Assembly (NCBI RefSeq): GCF_947623445.1
Contig: NC_135246.1
Coordinates: 19,092,288-19,156,287 of the forward strand
Direction of reading: 5' to 3'
From: Clavelina lepadiformis
Lineage: Eukaryota > Chordata > Ascidiacea > Aplousobranchia > Clavelinidae
DNA length: 64,000 bases
The translations under genes were made by a program, and so were the position numbers. How positions within the stretch are numbered: position 1 is the first letter of the stretch; each line of letters opens with the position of its first letter. Below, in pieces: positions 4,677-14,087 of the stretch. The notes below the pieces were generated by a model that worked only from the letters and a program-made list of their open reading frames with translations, was not told the origin of the DNA and searched no databases.

Positions 4677-5639
4677 ATGGATTTAATTAATGAAAGCAAA
4701 AAGAGATTAAAAGATTTTCTTGAAAAATTGCAAAATGAAAGTTCGTTTGCTGATTTGGAAGAAGGCAATGCTTCCGCTGTATCTCAGGTACGATAGCCTA
4801 CCACTTAAATATTCTGGTTTTAATGTTTGTGAGTTTGGCCTATGTTTTGTCATAACGTAGCATATGTTCTGGCCCTCGAAACATTGCCACATTTTTCCTC
4901 ATGCTTCAAGTTTGCTAATTATTATTATCATTGTCATTGATGTTACTTGCAGTCATCAATACTTTTGTGAGCACAATTTTTTACCCCAATCGTATATGAC
5001 AAAAAAGTGAAATGAATGAAAATAGATTTTTCCAAAAGTGTTATAGCCTGGTGTGTAAGCTAGGCTGGTCTCTATTGAGTAATAACTATTGCATTTGTTG
5101 CTTTGAAAAAGGATACAGATATCTTAACTGAAATTGAGCACATAGAAAATGCACAACAACTGAGATGGGATAACTTGCAACAGGCTCATGCTAATCAGCA
5201 ATCATCCTTGGAAAGCCTGTGGGAAGAGCAACATGCATTGAAGCAGTTGATTAATGATGTTGACAAAGAGGTAATGAGCCTTAGAGAAAAAGAAAAGGAG
5301 TCACTGTGCGAACTGGAAAATCTTGAACAATCTCGATTAGCTGTTGCCCAAGCGAGGCAAGAAGCAAATATGGAATCACTGGACATTGCTCGACAGACTT
5401 TATTTGGTGCACGTCGAGAGCAATCGATTAATCAGTTGGTAAAATTAATCGCCCCAATAAAATGGGATAGCCCAGACACTTCTAACCCAAATATTGTAAG
5501 AGCAACGATTGTTCAAAAGTCAGGTGTCAAATCTTTGACATTTGAACGAAGTGGTGAGTCTGCCGGTGATATTGGCAACAAGTTGTGGAATGTTTTGGAG
5601 GATGGTGAAAATTTTATTGGAACAGAATCTTCCACGTAA
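4677..5639 (+). CDS. SPC24: Kinetochore protein Spc24-like
   Basis: Two exons (4677-4787 and 5112-5639) give 212 residues; vertebrate Spc24 is about 197. Residues 1 to about 145 are Glu/Lys/Leu/Gln-rich and predicted coiled coil. Residues about 148-205 resemble the small Spc24 globular domain: it starts at APIKWDS (W155), has alternating hydrophobic strands (IVRATIV, SLTFERS) and ends with a helix carrying LWNVLED, comparable to the LWSLVD of vertebrate Spc24. Spc24 pairs with Spc25 in the NDC80 complex and links outer kinetochore microtubule binding to the inner kinetochore. The second exon's acceptor (ctttgaaaaag) has a weak pyrimidine tract. The match rests on architecture and the short C-terminal pattern, so another coiled-coil kinetochore or centrosome protein is possible. 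Confidence 0.6.
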
Positions 5640-5733
5640 TTGTTTAAACTTAACCACTTTACGGGGCACACATCAAAGGAAAAAATACTTGTGGTGTTTG
5701 TAACGTTACAAATTGTTTAGTTTTGCGATTAGT

Positions 5734-5764
5734 AAGCTTGATTGTCATCCAGACAATCAAGCTT
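5734..5764. other. Perfect 13-bp inverted repeat (hairpin) downstream of the Spc24-like gene
   Basis: aagcttgattgtc and its exact reverse complement gacaatcaagctt are separated by the loop atcca, 95 bases after the Spc24-like stop codon, probably in its 3' UTR. Confidence 0.7.
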
Positions 5765-6875
5765 GCACATTTATTGTTATGTTACTCTGGTCATTTTTCA
5801 TATTGTATTGCTGAAACTTTTTCTGCAGTTCTTCACCAAAATTGAAGTTTTTCCTCAAAAAAGAAATGTGTACAGCTTTTCACAAATATGTTATCAAAAA
5901 TTGAACTTGTAGATATTGTCTTTTACTCAAAAATGTTATTTCACGATGGCAAGTTATTTTTATTGTTGCTAAAACTAGCTATTCTTTGATGTATAAATTG
6001 GTTTATGTTTCATGTGTTCCATGTTACAGTATAATCAAATGAACATTGCAAAGAAAGTATGCTTATGACTGTCGCTCACCATGAATTGTACTGTAAGCAG
6101 TTCCTAATTGGTAGTTATAATTGGGGGAAAGAAAATGCAGGACTTACCTGTATTGCAGTACCGTTTCTGTATCAGTATTGGTGGGCTCAGCATTGTTTCA
6201 GAAAGTGAAGATTGCCTGCACCCAGTCTACTATTTCAGCTAATTCCTTTGAAACTCACACACAAAAATCGCTCAAAATTTTATAGAATAACACCATTGCA
6301 TAAAACATCATGACAAGATGGTAAATAAGTTGGAACACTGATTAACTTCAGTTCTATCCACTGAAACTCTTTCATGTTATAAAATATCCCCAATTCACTG
6401 GAATTCAACAAGGGTAAACATAAGCAATAGAAGCAGAAGGTTAGATAACACTAACTGTGATCTGTGTGTATCACTTAAATATTAGCTTCCAAAAAACAAT
6501 GTTGCCTAACATGAATTAATGTACAACAAAGAGCATTGTGTAGAGTTTACCAAGAAAGCAGCAAATACTTCATCAGTTGATGATTTTAAAGCATATGGCA
6601 AAGCCTTTGGTGATATAAATAAACCAAATAACAGAGACATTCAATAATAACAGCGTCTATCAGGCACCAATATGTCGACCATACATTTTACGGAGTTGTA
6701 GTTAGATTTAGGAATGGATAAAAATTTTTATAATTAGGTGAGAATCAAACTATATCATATATATAAACTGTTCTCATGACAATTGGAGTTTACTGTCTTT
6801 CTGGAAGCAATAAAAATAGTTCTTGCGAAAGTAAACAGAAAATAGTTATAAGAAAGAAAATCCCAATATTTTGTG
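5765..6875. other. Gap between convergent Spc24-like and AATF genes
   Basis: AT-rich sequence with no supported exon. It presumably carries the 3' UTRs of both convergent genes. The only canonical AATAAA I noticed on the + strand is near 6619, almost 1 kb past the Spc24-like stop. Confidence 0.5.
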
Positions 6876-8246
6876 TTAACTTCCACCTGGTTTGCCAAAT
6901 ACAGATTTTAAAAGTTGGTTGCATGATTCATCAGACCATTTCTTTTTGTTTACAGGTGCGGTAAAGTTGAGTAATTTTGAGTGCACATGGTACCGAATAT
7001 TTCTTCCTTTACTTGCTTTAGTGTCAACATTTTTCTTTACTTTTTTCCTGCTTTGCATTTTCAACCAATTCCTTGTCATTTGTATAGAATTTACCGCAGC
7101 GTCTGCAACATCTGGTGCCATTTTCCATTCAATGAGTTGTCGTAGCAACTGCTGATAAAAGTCATCATCGTTGAAATTTTCTTCATCTGTTTGTTTAAGA
7201 TGGAAGTCAGGATCATTCTTGTCTTCATCTGCACTTCCTGTACAGCCAAGGACTCTACAGTTCAAGCGGCAAAGTTTTGTTCTTTGAATGTGGTGAGACA
7301 AATCAGCCAGAGCATGCTCAATTTGGGCGTCGGTTGAATGCTCAAAATTGGAAAACGACTTGTTAGGTTTGGAAGAGAGCTTAATTTTGTTGTACCAATA
7401 TTTCAAAATATGGTTTCTTTCAATCCTTAATCTGCAACTCATTTTCTGTGCTCTCTTTGTCCATGTATCGGTCTTCAGTGGTGCATTGTTGACTGCTTTC
7501 AATTCTGATTCGTTTTCAACAGAAGTTTGTTTTAGAAGTGCATACTGCAAATCAGTTAAAGCTGTGCCCAGCGCATCTACAGACAAAGCTGTTTCTTTAA
7601 CAGATGAGATGAGACTTTCTCCTCCGTGGTCTGTGAATTTTGAATAAACACAAAATTTTGGCAAACGAGATGAAACCGCTGTAAGTGTCTGCATTTTTAT
7701 CCTCATTTCAAGAACAAGTTCCCACAAATTAATCTGGTTGACTGTCGCTAGTGATTGAAGGTTTCTGGAGACGGCTTTTTGGGCAGAAAATATATCAAGT
7801 GCTGCATCTTCATTACTGTTTAATACTTTTTGCTCTTGTGAAATTATCGGCTCGAAGTTGTCTTCCACTGAAATACTTTCTTCTTCCTCCTCGTCCATTT
7901 GTATGGCATCAAGCATATCAAATGCATCATCCTCATCACTGGAAGAATTAAAGTTTTCGGCTGCTTCCTTTCTACTAACCACCTTTCCAGGGAAGCTAAT
8001 ATCTTCACTCTGCAATACATGTTTACGTAGTTGAGATGTCTGTTGTATGTTGGAATCATTTTCCGGTATTTCATCAATCAAATCTTTTTCCACTAGTTTA
8101 GCTCTTGATTCTTCAAAAACGTAATCCTCAGGATCGCACTGAGGCTGTGGATTACTGATAGAAGACAAATATTCAGCAAAGACGCTCATGTTGCAATGTA
8201 CGGTCAATTCATAAGCACGTGTAAAAAAACTAGGCAGAGTTTTCAA
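6876..8246 (-). CDS. AATF: AATF/Che-1/Bfr2 family protein, intronless
   Basis: One uninterrupted frame encodes up to 456 residues; human AATF is about 560. AATF/Bfr2 is a nucleolar protein of early 40S ribosome biogenesis and in vertebrates also a transcription cofactor. Visible family signatures are a Ser/Asp/Glu-rich acidic tract (residues 101-124), a Leu-rich central region, NHILKYWYNKIKL (278-290) of the AATF domain, NDDDFYQQLLRQLIEWK (359-375), and the basic C-terminal KGRNIRYHVHSKLLNFTAP (413-431). The more likely start is Met20 (ATG at 8189-8187), because SVFAEYLSSISNPQP then aligns with the N-terminus of family members; the first 19 residues are not family-like. The gene is convergent with the Spc24-like gene. 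The absence of introns stands out beside its intron-rich neighbours. Confidence 0.92.
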   Translation of the reverse strand: MKTLPSFFTRAYELTVHCNMSVFAEYLSSISNPQPQCDPEDYVFEESRAKLVEKDLIDEIPENDSNIQQTSQLRKHVLQSEDISFPGKVVSRKEAAENFNSSSDEDDAFDMLDAIQMDEEEEESISVEDNFEPIISQEQKVLNSNEDAALDIFSAQKAVSRNLQSLATVNQINLWELVLEMRIKMQTLTAVSSRLPKFCVYSKFTDHGGESLISSVKETALSVDALGTALTDLQYALLKQTSVENESELKAVNNAPLKTDTWTKRAQKMSCRLRIERNHILKYWYNKIKLSSKPNKSFSNFEHSTDAQIEHALADLSHHIQRTKLCRLNCRVLGCTGSADEDKNDPDFHLKQTDEENFNDDDFYQQLLRQLIEWKMAPDVADAAVNSIQMTRNWLKMQSRKKVKKNVDTKASKGRNIRYHVHSKLLNFTAPVNKKKWSDESCNQLLKSVFGKPGGS

Positions 8247-8550
8247 TGAGCTAAAATCGGCAACACTGCTCTCCAGTGTTAAAAAGTATTTTTAATTATT
8301 ATTAGAAAGCATGTGATTTTTTTTCCATAGTTTGTTACAATTTAGTACTTTACTCTTAATCTTGAATCAAAAACCGGTACATTGGCTAACTGGATATCTA
8401 TGTGGTCAGCAAAGCAACAAAATAATTGCATAAAGTTAAATTTTTTCCTATGGTATTTACTGCTGTTGCTTTTATATGTGGGAAATCACCTTCTTGTTGC
8501 ACTGTTGCGTTGAATTGTATTGTTTATTTTTCATCGTTTACTGTGCGGAG

Positions 8551-8560
8551 CGAAAGTTAG
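8551..8560. repeat. Target-site duplication, left copy
   Basis: cgaaagttag directly precedes the left terminus of the 5.5-kb transposon and recurs exactly at 14078-14087. The true duplication could be 8, 9 or 10 bp because flank and terminus share bases. Confidence 0.75.
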
Positions 8561-10170
8561 GGCACTGGGTAAAACCTGGACACGACGCAATCCGCGGATC
8601 GTCCATGGACGGTTGAAAATGGACGATTTTTGCGTAAGCGTCCATGGACGCTTTTACGCAAAACCGACGTTTTCCTTTAATCGTCCATGGACGGTTGTTG
8701 AAATAGGCTTAAATCAGTTCTTTTGCATCAAAGCGTCCATGGGTGGTTTTTAGGATAAGTTTAAAGCAGTGTTTTCGAGATCGTCCATGGACGGTTGAAA
8801 ATGGACGATTTTTGCGTAAGCGTCCATGGACGATTTTAGGAAAAGCTTAAATAGCGGATATGAGGAAAGCGTCCATGGACGGTTGTGGGATTAGGCTTAA
8901 AAAGCGTCCATGGACGATTTTAGGATAAGCTTAAATAGCGAGATGATGAAAATGTCGTGGACAGTTATGGGATAGGCTTAAATAGTGGATATCATGAAGT
9001 ATCCATGGACGGTTATGGGATAGGCTTAAATAGTGGATATGATGTACCGGTAGTGTCCATGGACTGTTTTGAGATAGGCTTAAATAGTGGATATGATGTA
9101 CCGGTAGTGTCCATGGACTGTTTTGGGGTAGGCTTAAATAGTGGATATGATGTACCGGTAGTGTCCATGGACTGTTTTGGGATAGGCTTAAATAGTGGAT
9201 ATGATGTACCGGTAGTGTCCATGGACTGTTTTGGGATAGGCTTAAATAGCGAATATGATGAAGTATCCATGGACGGTTATGGGATAGGCTTAAATAGTGG
9301 ATATGATGAAGTATCCATGGACGGTTATGGGATAGGCTTAAATAGTGGATATGATGTACCGGTAGTGTCCATGGACTGTTTTGGGATAGGCTTAAATAGC
9401 GAATATGATGAAGTATCCATGGACGGTTATGGGATAGGCTTAAATAGTGGATATCATGAAGTATCCATGGACGGTTATGGGATAGGCTTAAATAGTGGAT
9501 ATGATGAAGTATCCATGGACGGTTATGGGATAGGCTTAAATATTGGATATGATGAAGTATCTATGGACAGTTATGGGATAGGTTTAAATAGCGAATATGA
9601 TGAAGTATCCATGGACGGTTATAGGATGGGCTTAAATAGTGGATATGATGAAGTATCTATGGACAGTTATGTGATAGGCTTAAATAGCGAATATGATGAA
9701 GTATCCATGGACGGTTATAGGATAGGCTTAAATAGTGGATATGATGAAGTATCCATGGACGGTTATGGGATAGGCTTAAATAGTGGATATGATGAAGTAT
9801 CCATGGACGGTTATGGGATAGGCTTAAAAAACGTCCATGGACGATTTTAGGAAAAGCTTAAATAGCGAATATGATGAAAGTGTCCATGGAAAGTTATGGG
9901 ATAGGCTTAAATAGTGGATATGATGTCAGCATCCAGCAAGCATGGACAGTTTTGGGGTGATATGCAGAAATGATGGGACATGCAAAGACGTCCATGGGTT
10001 TTGGGATAGACTTAAATGATGTATTTTGGATTAACGTCCATTTAAGGGTTTTGGGATCTAGGTTTAAAATTAAATGATGGATATACGGTTTTGGGTTAGG
10101 CTAAAGTGATACAGTTATAGGCATCTATAAGCTGGACACGACACAATCCATGGACTGTTGAAAATTTTGA
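8561..10170 (+). repeat. Left arm: 48/54-bp tandem repeats
   Basis: After about 350 bp of subterminal sequence rich in cgtccatggac motifs, about 18 near-identical units run from 8957 to 9850. The 48-bp unit encodes VSMDGYGIGLNSGYDE and the 54-bp unit encodes VSMDCFGIGLNSGYDVPV. Decayed units continue to about 10110. A diverged copy of the outer terminus (ctggacacgacacaatcc) sits at 10132-10149 in the same orientation. Because both unit lengths are multiples of three and lack stops, a 297-codon frame is open at 8957-9850. The reverse strand is open for part of this too. I regard the frame as a by-product of the repeat unless expression is shown. Confidence 0.85.
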
Positions 10171-10602
10171 GTAATTATTTCGTGGCATGACCAACTTTTT
10201 TATTTATGTGTCTTTACTGTAAATTGTTGTTATTATTCTGATTTAGATATAACATTACTGATCTCAATACATATTTTTCTGATATTGTAAGTGTATTTTA
10301 GATCATTTTTACGTGCTAATGGCAAATGTTTTTGTGGCACTTGGGATAAATGGATGTTTCAGCATAGCAAACATGAAAGGCAACAAGACAGTTTGAATTG
10401 TGGCTCACTTGCTTTAAAGGTATTTTTAGAAAGGATGAATTCAAATTTGTGAAGATTAAGTATATATATAATCACTATTATTATTAGTATATATTATCAC
10501 TAATTCAAACTATTTGACATCACAATGTGTAATCGTGTATATTCCTAAAATCAAATTGGATTGTAAAAAATAGCTTTTCTATCAATAAGTGGCATATTGC
10601 AG

Positions 10603-12804
10603 GAAGCTCAAAGAATCCTTAATGAAAGTTCTTCCGAGGAACAGATCGATACGGACAGCGAGTCCTGCAAAAAGTATCGCATGGACTTTGGCAATTTACT
10701 GCTTGATTCCACCGGTGAGAGGCTGTTGGGCTTTTAATTAGAACTGCAGTATTTGTAGCATGTTGTGACCTTGTTGTTGTTTAAGGTCGTTGAAGTATAC
10801 CACATAATTTTCCAGAAGAGCACTAAACCATACTTATGTATAAAGTTAATGTAAAAGAGATTTATAGGAAAACCACCAACATTTTTAACCTGACTTTAAA
10901 CAGATTAACTATTTTGTTCGTTGTTGTATTTGTAACTGGCACATTGTTGGTCTTGAATTTGTTAACTAAATATTTTTAAAAACTGTATACTTCTGTATTC
11001 ACAACAAAGTATTTTAATGTAAAAATGCAGATAGATTTATTTCATTTTGCAGACTATGATGTATTGTTGAGTTTTTGCAATATATGCCACAATCAAGACC
11101 CATCTGAAATTGACCAGCAAAAGACAGAATGGGTAAACCTTGTTCATCATATAATATATTAACTTAGGCAGATTTAACCATCATTGCATACAGTTTAGTA
11201 GGTATTATAAGTTGCAACTATTTTACCACTGTAGTGAAACTATTTCGAACTGGGCAGCGGCAGATATTAGATTTTGGAGAAGTTTATTTTCAGTTTTACT
11301 GTGGTCTAAGCCAAATTTTGAACTTTTTACTTTTAGCTTGATACTTCAACAGGACCATGATAATCTCTATCGTCGTTTCTTCGCATGACTTAAACCTGGC
11401 ACTGATTCCTAATCATTCAATACTCTGGTTAACAAGCTAGCCTTTGTACACTTTTTTTTGTGACATATTTTTTATTGGTTTTTGCATCATATTGCCCAAA
11501 TTTCAAACTTTTTGCCAGTTTAAATAAAAAGACCTAGCGTTGTTAATGCATTGCAACTGAGTATCGAACACAAGCCATGCACAAAGTTTGCTCATTTGTT
11601 TCAGATGTTACTCTATGTTTCTACATACAGATAATAAATGTCTACGAGCACACAGGTCCAGTAGTGCATAGTTTTATTTTTGTATAATTCCTGTTCTACA
11701 ACCAAAAATTGTGTACATAAAACCGTACATAAAAATTACTTAACTCAAACACAACTAGAAAATTTAAAATCACTTTTAAAATTCTAGTTGTTTTAATTTT
11801 GCACTCGTGGTTCCAAAACACTTATGAAAAAACTAAGTTAATGACTTGTGTTTTTTTTGATAGGTTGTTTTAACTTTATAGAACACCTATACCAGGGGTG
11901 GCCAGACCTGCTTCATGCTCGAGCCGCATATAACAAATTCCAGTTTTAAAAGAGCCACAACACAAAACAATAAAAAACACGAATTTATTCACTTACAACG
12001 AAGTGTAGCTATTGATAAACATTAGTGCTGCGTGGTGATACTATGAGTCTCCACCTGGGCTTCACCAACTCTTTTTGCAATTATTAGTATAACCGTAACC
12101 AAGACTTAAAACTAGGTCAGCCCTGACGTACAGCTTCAATTTGACAGTTTACTTAACTACAGTGTACAAGTTAGCACACTTCTGTACAATAATGTCCTTT
12201 TTGGAGTGTAATTTGATTATTATTAACAATGAGTCCATTGTTACTACGTTTGATAGGACGCATAGTTTCATAATCTGATCAAACAACTCGTCTAGACCGG
12301 GAAAATGCATTTCTAATTCAACAACGGTAATTCATTAAAGAGCCGCATGCGGCTCGAGAGCCGCAGTTTGGCCACCCCTGACCTATACCATGCTCAAGCA
12401 TATGTGGGCAGTACTGCGGTACTATAGTACCGAATTACTTTTTTCAAGAAATTACAGTCAGTCCCGGTAATCAGTACTTTTCGTGTGATTAGTTAAAATT
12501 TAACAAGTTTATGTTCAAAAAACACATGTTAATTACTCCTTAATACCAATTGTAGCATCTGTTGATCTTTTTTAATGTAGAAGTGTCAAGCAAAATGGCG
12601 AACAAGTAACCTTTACCGCAGCAAATATTGCATTTGCTGCAGCATCTTTTACACGAAAAGTGCTGTCTGTTCACCTCTTTGCTTAAGAGATCACTTTACA
12701 GGATTTAATTGTCTATATTGTTTTTTCAGATTGAATGCAGTCTTTGTTGTCGATGGGTTCATCAGAATTGTGTACCATTAATACAGTATTTGTCGCAGGA
12801 ATAA
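10603..12804 (+). pseudogene. Remnant of a PHD-finger gene inside the transposon
   Basis: Three exon-like pieces are bounded by consensus splice sites with compatible phases: 10603-10714 (acidic, Ser-rich, ending NLLLDSTG), 11053-11132 (DYDVLLSFCNICHNQDPS, ending KTEW) and 12730-12804 (IECSLCCRWVHQNCVP). Together they give the C4HC3 order of a PHD finger: CNIC, ECSLC, WVHQNC. A stop at 12802-12804 falls just before FCSTC, which would be the last Cys pair in the same frame. The hAT MITE lies in the second intron. PHD fingers occur at the ends of several eukaryotic transposase proteins and in many chromatin proteins, so this may be a leftover transposase tail or a captured host fragment. I find no catalytic part. 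Confidence 0.5.
11893..12380. mobile_element. hAT MITE nested in the transposon interior
   Basis: It begins caggggtggccag and ends tttggccacccctg. It is flanked by a perfect 8-bp duplication acctatac (11885-11892 and 12381-12388), as expected for hAT. Inner ends carry gctcgagccgcat and atgcggctcgag. The 488-bp interior is non-coding. It inserted after the host transposon was in place. Confidence 0.88.
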
Positions 12805-13221
12805 TTTTGCAGCACCTGCAAAAAAGAATAAATGGATTAATACAAATTTTTGTGTTTGACGCGAAAGTGAATATATTCAATTTTAAGCAATATATGACGA
12901 AATGAAATCGAGATTAGGTGTTACGCTGCTCACAGTTATAGTAAAATATGTACAATTTAACACATTAAGCTTGAGTGATGATGAAAACAACTTGGTTAAA
13001 GTCTGTAATCACATAATTTAAAAAGTTTTTGGAATTGGACTTTATTCAGACCCAGATTGGAAAGTTCGCTGTTCTTGGGTGAGAAATCCCCTGTGCTACA
13101 TTATAAAAGAATAGCCATTGTACACCCAATTAATTATATTCCTCCCCCTCGTTCACATTCAAATACTGAGTGAGTTTTTACTGGATTGACGATGATGGTC
13201 ACTTCTCTCCTGTCAGCTCAT

Positions 13222-14077
13222 CCTATAACAAAAATCGTTCATGGATGCTTTTTAAGCCCATCAAATCAAATCATCAAATCCACTATTTCAGCCTATGCCA
13301 TAACTGTCCAAGGATACTTTCATCATATCCACTATTTAAGCCTATCCCATAACCGTCCATGGATACTTCATCATATCCACTATTTAAGCCTATCCCATAA
13401 CCGTCCATGGATACTTCATCATATCCACTATTTAAGCCTATCCCATCATGGTCCATGGATACTTCATCATATTCGCTATTTAAGCTTTTCCTAAAATCGT
13501 CCATGGACGCTTTTTAAGCCTATCTCAAAACAGTCCATGGACACTTCATCATATCCACTATTTAAGCCTATCCCATAACTGTCCATAGATACTTCATCAT
13601 ATCCAATATTTAAGCCTATCCCATAACCGTCCATGGATACTTCATCATATCCACTATTTAAGCCTATCCCATAACCGTCCATGGAAACTTCATCATCTCG
13701 CTATTTAAGCTTTTCCTAAAATCGTCCATGGACGCTTTTTAAGCCTAATCCCACAACCGTCAATCGACGATTTTCCCATATCCGCTATTTAAGCTTTTCC
13801 TAAAATCGTCCATGGACGCTTAAGCAAAAATCGTCCATTTTCAACCGTCCATGGACGATCTCGAAAACACTGCTTTAAACTTATCCTAAAAACCACCCAT
13901 GGACGCTTTGTTAAAAAATAACTCATTTAAGCCTATTTCAACAACCGTCCATGGACGATTAAAGGAAAACGTCGGTTTTGCGTAAAAGCGTCCATGGACG
14001 CTTACGCAAAAATCGTCCATTTTCAACCGTCCATGGACGATCCGCGGATTGCGTCGTGTCCAGGTTTTACCCGGTCC
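13222..14077 (-). repeat. Right arm: inverted copy of the minisatellite terminus
   Basis: Read on the minus strand this repeats the left arm: the gggtaaaacctggacacgac terminus, cgtccatggac-rich subterminal sequence, then about eight 48-bp units coding SMDGYGIGLNSGYDE on the minus strand. The arm is shorter than the left one and lacks the 54-bp unit type. Confidence 0.85.
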
Positions 14078-14087
14078 CGAAAGTTAG
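14078..14087. repeat. Target-site duplication, right copy
   Basis: cgaaagttag, identical to 8551-8560, directly follows the right terminus of the transposon. Confidence 0.75.

Follow-up and report, generated by a model that had tools for sequence, protein, structure and literature searches.

A DNA transposon copy of 5518 bp lies at positions 8561–14078 of a 64,000-nucleotide stretch of the Clavelina lepadiformis genome (hereafter the window; assembly GCF_947623445.1, contig NC_135246.1, positions 19,092,288–19,156,287 of the forward strand). Its limits are set by arm complementarity, by its termini and by an exact 9-bp target-site duplication, GAAAGTTAG, which flank comparison places at 8552–8560 and 14079–14087; its orientation (plus strand) is set by putative exons for a PHD-type finger in the interior. 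The original prediction, which was made from the sequence alone, had proposed a right end at 14077 and an exact flanking duplication of 10 bp (8–10 bp if shared bases are allowed for). The duplication is present and exact, but its length is 9 bp, because the tenth shared base belongs to the element at the right end, as its last base, and to the host at the left end; the right end is moved one base further, to 14078.

The first six bases read inward are GGCACT at the left end and GGGACC at the right end, and each is followed by the 45-bp family terminus GGGTAAAACCTGGACACGACGCAATCCGCGGATCGTCCATGGACG, which gives a left terminus at 8561–8611 (plus strand) and a right terminus at 14028–14078 (minus strand), both assigned by terminus matches and by the duplication. 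The left arm (8561–10155, plus strand) contains 29 cores GTCCATGGAC with up to two mismatches, and the right arm (13237–14078, minus strand) contains 18. Tandem Repeats Finder reports a period of 48 in both arms, with 18.6 copies at 8907–9828 on the left, and 4.9 copies (13271–13507) and 4.7 copies (13513–13737) on the right. The array units, which carry TCCATGGA, are mostly 48 or 54 bp long, and core spacing is likewise mostly 48 or 54 bp, with distances of 34–52 bp and some larger gaps in other places. The element contains 38 exact occurrences of TCCATGGA, and the remaining 58,482 bases of the window contain none; with up to two mismatches, 17 cores are found in the window outside the element. 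The outer 491 nt of the arms (8554–9044 and 13595–14085) are 95% complementary, which together with the period-48 arrays bears out the expectation that both arms share an outer terminus and continue as tandem 48/54-bp units in mirror orientation. The architecture is therefore of the foldback type, with long inverted termini that consist largely of tandem repeats in variable number; this type is a structural class and not a clade.

The element belongs to a dispersed family. With up to three mismatches, the 45-bp terminus occurs at 87 places in the 209-Mb genome (44 forward, 43 reverse; 0 in the reversed-pattern control), and a degenerate 25-bp terminus occurs at 121 places (control 0). Family sequence was examined in 24 fetched loci (L017–L036, L047, L048, L051 and L052), of which 17 have a simple end pair and, together with the window copy, form the set of 18 used for the duplication test. 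Outside this set stand L018, which mirrors L017, L021, L025, L026 and L027, which have no simple end pair, and L047 and L048, whose right ends were not found in the sequence fetched. An exact 9-bp duplication flanks 10 of the 18 copies and L052 matches at 8 of 9 positions, and exact duplications of 6–8 or 10–12 bp are found in none of the 18. When left and right flanks were paired between different copies, only 2 of 306 pairings agreed with at most one mismatch in 9, so that chance does not account for the flanking repeat.

For two insertions, paralogous empty sites were identified. L034 is inserted in a dispersed repeat; of 360 candidates in the search with its joined flanks, 40 were listed with scores, and two of these are the flanks of L034 itself. 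The other 38 listed matches all span the junction unbroken with 84–90% identity, although on the left side they extend only 6–25 bp beyond it, and 37 of the 38 hold the complete single 9-mer. For L020, one paralogue spans the junction of the joined flanks with 72% identity. The transposon with minisatellite inverted termini that had been predicted is thus upheld by shared termini, arrays, duplications and empty sites, and the terminus search that had been proposed, with alignment of flanks, shows that numerous copies share these ends, lie between different flanking sequences and have 9-bp duplications.

These results bear on the view that the arms are a pair of host minisatellites or an inverted segmental duplication, flanked by a repeat through chance, which can be given virtually no credence. 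It draws some support from copies that lie in duplicated DNA, since L022 and L024 share flanks and L017 is mirrored by L018 at a distance of 0.28 Mb. Against it stand the different flanks of the copies, the excess of exact duplications over swapped flanks, the empty sites of L034 and L020, and the location of the array units, because, of the 202 unit matches in the genome, each of the 100 listed is no more than 3.4 kb away from a listed terminus. A free host minisatellite is ruled out by the last of these points, and segmental duplication as the main cause by the duplications and the L034 empty sites. Separately, L025 and L026 together form a 17-kb palindrome that extends about 80 bp beyond the termini, and in this pair, as in L022/L024 and L017/L018, family copies are found at the edges of duplicated DNA.

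The superfamily is indicated by a longer relative, L047 (C4:17589300–17599299), which begins with the family terminus and shares arrays and interior with the window copy (94% identity over 333 bp at the terminus, 91% over 1649 bp in the interior). An open frame of 885 amino acids on its minus strand (5304–7958) contains the Pfam MULE (Mutator-like element) domain PF10551 with 34.1 bits against a cut-off of 27.6, and also has a stretch of the form CxC...CxH that resembles a SWIM finger by eye, with no SWIM reported by Pfam. Because a long relative with the same terminus, arrays and interior holds a MULE transposase frame, the family is assigned to the Mutator/MULE superfamily, which is the assignment that a transposase-bearing relative had been expected to provide. 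Target duplications of Mutator and MULE elements are about 8–11 bp, a range that includes the exact 9 bp of 10 of the 18 copies. A protein search of the genome with the L047 transposase gave 16 matches, of which L047 is the only intact full-length frame; L017 and its mirror copy L018 contain fragments (91% over 48 amino acids), and transposase fragments are also found some 0.3 kb away from the family terminus at C4:4744655. The match of the L047 right arm ends near 9785 and no terminus follows within the next 2 kb, so L047 is not a complete element. Among solved structures, its protein has no match up to E 1. Within the N-terminal acidic region of the transposase frame, L047 contains a 159-bp unit repeated 2.9 times with 98% identity (7397–7855). 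In the genome as a whole, the MULE domain gives 141 matches at E ≤1e-3, and many of these are equally scoring open frames of 519 amino acids, which suggests recent activity of other MULE families.

Two further loci were considered as autonomous copies and rejected: the L025 and L026 palindrome, whose middle frames appear by eye to be debris of other transposons, including a MULE-like stretch, and L048, which has a Tc5/CENP-B-type frame inside. The latter is relevant to the suggestion that the family belongs to another superfamily, for example a P-like one as in Galileo, and that the MULE frame of L047 is a nested passenger. Nesting does occur in the family, as the family arms of L048 enclose a 637-amino-acid Tc5/CENP-B-type transposase together with another frame, and the window copy itself holds a hAT-like insert. 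The suggestion is nevertheless highly improbable: the L047 frame sits between family interior and family arm, where no second ends were noticed, though no dedicated search for them was made, pieces of this transposase are also found at other copies of the family, and 9 bp is described as a duplication size common for MULE transposases (PMC3169594). Two L047 and two L048 frames gave no Pfam match to THAP or to a P-type transposase up to E 1.

The window copy lacks the transposase frame of L047. Its adjoining positions, approximately 10275 and 10277, correspond in the alignment to positions 8922 and 4799 of L047, so that about 4.1 kb, including the frame, is missing at an approximate junction at 10275–10277. 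Downstream of the junction, three short putative exons on the plus strand (10603–10714, 11053–11132 and 12730–12804, the last with a stop codon), with splice-like borders drawn by eye, yield a PHD-type finger, formed by the second and last exons together, that scores E 3.8e-5 with PHD_4 and E 1.2e-4 with PHD, both below the Pfam cut-off. Their counterparts in L047 (4466–4350, 4000–3920 and 3039–2968) lie on the transposase strand, downstream of the transposase. From this order and strand, the simplest reading is that the three would be the last exons of the transposase gene. The simplest reading of the window copy and its sisters is likewise that they may be internal-deletion derivatives, because the transposase exon is absent and the three downstream exons are kept.

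A hAT-like insert occupies 11893–12380 of the window copy, with ends CAGGGGTGGCC and GGCCACCCCTG identified by eye, and is flanked by an 8-bp duplication, ACCTATAC, at 11885–11892 and 12381–12388. Among the sister copies compared, no interior aligns to the insert, and nine loci (L021, L022, L024, L025, L027, L028, L029, L031 and L036) align up to both of its borders; the hAT-like element entered the window copy later. Relatives of this insert flank L029. On the left side of the transposon, the host AATF gene is located at 6876–8291 on the minus strand (Pfam TRAUB, E 1.4e-24; AATF-Che1, E 3.2e-13). Its likely start codon, placed by eye, is about 370 bp from the element, which therefore lies in or near the AATF promoter.

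The N-terminal part of the transposase has a further peculiarity. Two stretches, one in an upstream 160-amino-acid frame of L047 and one in the 885-amino-acid frame, match Pfam CG-1 below its cut-off (E 0.0077 and 0.0027, respectively), and they match each other with 30% identity (E 3e-15). Duplication of an N-terminal domain is solid, and the CG-1 identity of the duplicated domain is a lead. CG-1 is the DNA-binding domain of CAMTA transcription factors. A genome-wide search with the CG-1 family gave two hits, which lie near C2:21.06 Mb and are attributed to the host CAMTA gene; it did not recover the transposon, which weakens the CG-1 reading. A bolder proposal is that the transposase would read the arm palindromes with two CG-1-type domains, that domain duplication and array growth would have co-evolved, and that the CAMTA domain would share ancestry with a MULE transposase domain, through capture by the transposon or domestication from one; this is improbable. 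In the open-licence literature, no description was found of a CG-1 domain paired with a MULE or a transposase, so that the CG-1-like domains, if upheld, would add a DNA-binding domain not found described with either in that literature.

The array units are, as the original prediction proposed, candidate repeated binding sites for the transposase. In 345 units from 12 copies, with the spacer motif GGCTTAAATAG as anchor, the core TCCATGGAC is conserved at 86–99% at each position, and many positions of the spacer beyond this motif reach 42–65%; in 517 units anchored on the core, other positions are at 29–97%. This conservation of the core and the location of the listed units near termini fit a binding role, of which conservation by itself is no proof. 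A literature search that paired subterminal repeats with transposase binding retrieved nothing. It is possible, although rather unlikely, that the same MULE-mobilized element needs only its outer terminus, and that the arrays are passengers produced by slippage and by recombination of the inverted arms. The number of cores varies widely, as passengers would allow (15–31 in the left and 7–26 in the right arms of 14 young copies), and the older-type copies L051 and L052 have also moved, with an exact duplication and 8 of 9 matching positions, respectively, and only 9 or 14 cores in total. The difference in conservation between core and spacer and the presence of arrays in all 14 young copies examined argue against passengers.

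Crossover between copies is suggested by the distribution of ends. Two kinds of end exist, GGCACT and GGGAC, and they were compared in 15 of the 18 copies, with omission of L032, L051 and L052, which have older or doubled ends. Eleven of these 15 young copies have one end of each kind, and nine of the eleven have the duplication; the other four have two like ends, and none of them has it (Fisher p 0.011). Because L022 and L024 share flanks, the like-ended cases are reduced to three independent ones, with a hand-worked probability of about 0.03. Like-ended copies without a duplication fit what would be expected as the remnant of a crossover between two copies. In L029 and L036 the interior is inverted relative to the ends. 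In the window copy, the left arm ends on its inner side with a decayed fossil terminus (10123–10149, plus strand; a 27-mer match with up to six mismatches), which is better preserved in several other copies, and a second well-kept terminus is found 0.7–1.8 kb inside one end of L020, L023, L030, L033 and L034.

The similarity of arms was compared in the same number of copies as the core counts (14). Over the outer 300 bp, the mean difference between the arms of a single copy is 6.6%, a value that was as low in 47 of 10,000 random pairings of left and right arms, or in 164 of 10,000 without L024. This similarity hints at exchange between the arms of a copy. Exchange is disfavored by the right arms of different copies, which differ by only 4.5% on average (left arms by 10.1%), and by copies whose two arms differ strongly, namely L028 (30%) and L033 (15%). 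The original prediction that arms expand and contract independently thus stands in part: core counts do differ between arms, but arms that belong to one copy are more alike than arms paired at random.

Taken together, the window copy is very probably a non-autonomous, internally deleted cut-and-paste MULE (Mutator/IS256-type) with foldback-style arms, built like Rehavkus, which would be moved by a transposase supplied in trans. The transposase would bind the outer terminus and probably also the arm palindromes, whose repetition would raise its concentration locally; it would normally pair a GGCACT-type end with a GGGAC-type end, and the element would be excised and reinserted with a 9-bp stagger. 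The length of the arrays may shift through slippage or unequal exchange, and recombination of inverted arms within and between copies may give rise to flipped interiors, like-ended copies and old termini inside longer arms.

Several observations weigh against parts of this explanation. Seven of the 18 end-paired copies (L017, L019, L022, L024, L028, L032 and L035) have no duplication, and no complete autonomous copy was seen among the fetched family loci. The IS256-type match of the L047 frame (E 5e-7) is below the cut-off of the model, as are the scores of the PHD-type finger. Conservation at a few spacer positions, such as the TT that follows the core, equals that of the core itself, and, as described above, mobility extends to older-type copies with few cores. 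On average, right arms compared between copies are closer (4.5%) than the left and right arms within a copy (6.6%), and the older-type L051 has two like ends and yet an exact duplication, contrary to the trend in young copies.

In this long-contig assembly, the family constitutes a well-resolved group of foldback-type MULEs in which numerous young copies, intact arms, exact duplications and empty sites are available together. It allows tracing of the formation of minisatellite termini, of the likeness between arms, and of the origin of like-ended elements from recombination between copies.

Arrays within termini had been regarded as unusual, but tandem arrays are already described for Rehavkus, Tm1, Tetris and Galileo. 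The Foldback element of Drosophila and TU of sea urchins also have inverted termini of tandem repeats and 8–9-bp duplications, a likeness of architecture. Rehavkus, with hosts among arthropods and annelids, is reviewed as MULE-like, with a 9-bp duplication, a PHD finger and a minisatellite before the 3′ terminus (PMC6446971), and Rehavkus-1_TC of Tribolium castaneum in Repbase is given as 9.5 kb long, with inverted termini that carry a 164-bp unit mostly in 5 and 8 copies (PMC10218199). The window family shares the MULE structure, the 9-bp duplication and the terminus-adjacent minisatellite, and its PHD-type finger is below the Pfam cut-off; it differs in its unit (48/54 bp against 164 bp) and in having the minisatellite in both arms, where the review places it before the 3′ terminus. 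By published description, it fits Rehavkus best and probably belongs there.

Tm1, a Mutator/Foldback element of root-knot nematodes, is described with 9-bp duplications, composite inverted termini in which the number of tandem units varies, ends of two kinds that mostly occupy one terminus each, a like-ended copy without duplication that was explained by crossover, and one transposase-coding class with many deletion derivatives (PMC3169594). All of these features have counterparts here. The Tm1 unit, however, is about 14 bp long with 1–9 units per terminus, and its transposase is described as of the Phantom type with FLYWCH, whereas the two L047 frames scanned have no FLYWCH match up to E 1 and a PHD-type finger is found instead. 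FLYWCH is characteristic of Phantom, but its absence alone does not exclude Phantom, which is listed with FLYWCH, with SWIM or with neither (PMC6446971).

Tetris of Drosophila virilis is described as a foldback element with tandem repeats in its inverted termini and 8–10-bp duplications, and has been suggested to belong to the Mutator superfamily (PMC4079207); it is alike in these respects. Its units of about 220 bp also form satellite arrays, whereas no free array is found here among the 100 listed unit matches, and the account gives no transposase-coding copy of Tetris, whereas a transposase-coding relative exists here. Galileo resembles the window family in its long, internally repetitive inverted termini with unequal repeat numbers at the ends of one copy, and its tandem repeats are reported to hold secondary transposase binding sites, but its transposase is of the P-element superfamily, in contrast to the MULE domain here (PMC3573991). 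Plant MULE families with tandem termini likewise have extra terminus copies inside the element, and the abstract and discussion of their description mention no minisatellite arms (PMC3310237). The architecture of the element is thus already known from insects, worms and flies. Less usual are the two end types, with like–like pairing without duplication in young copies, the fossil termini in the arms, and the duplicated N-terminal domain that is weakly CG-1-like.

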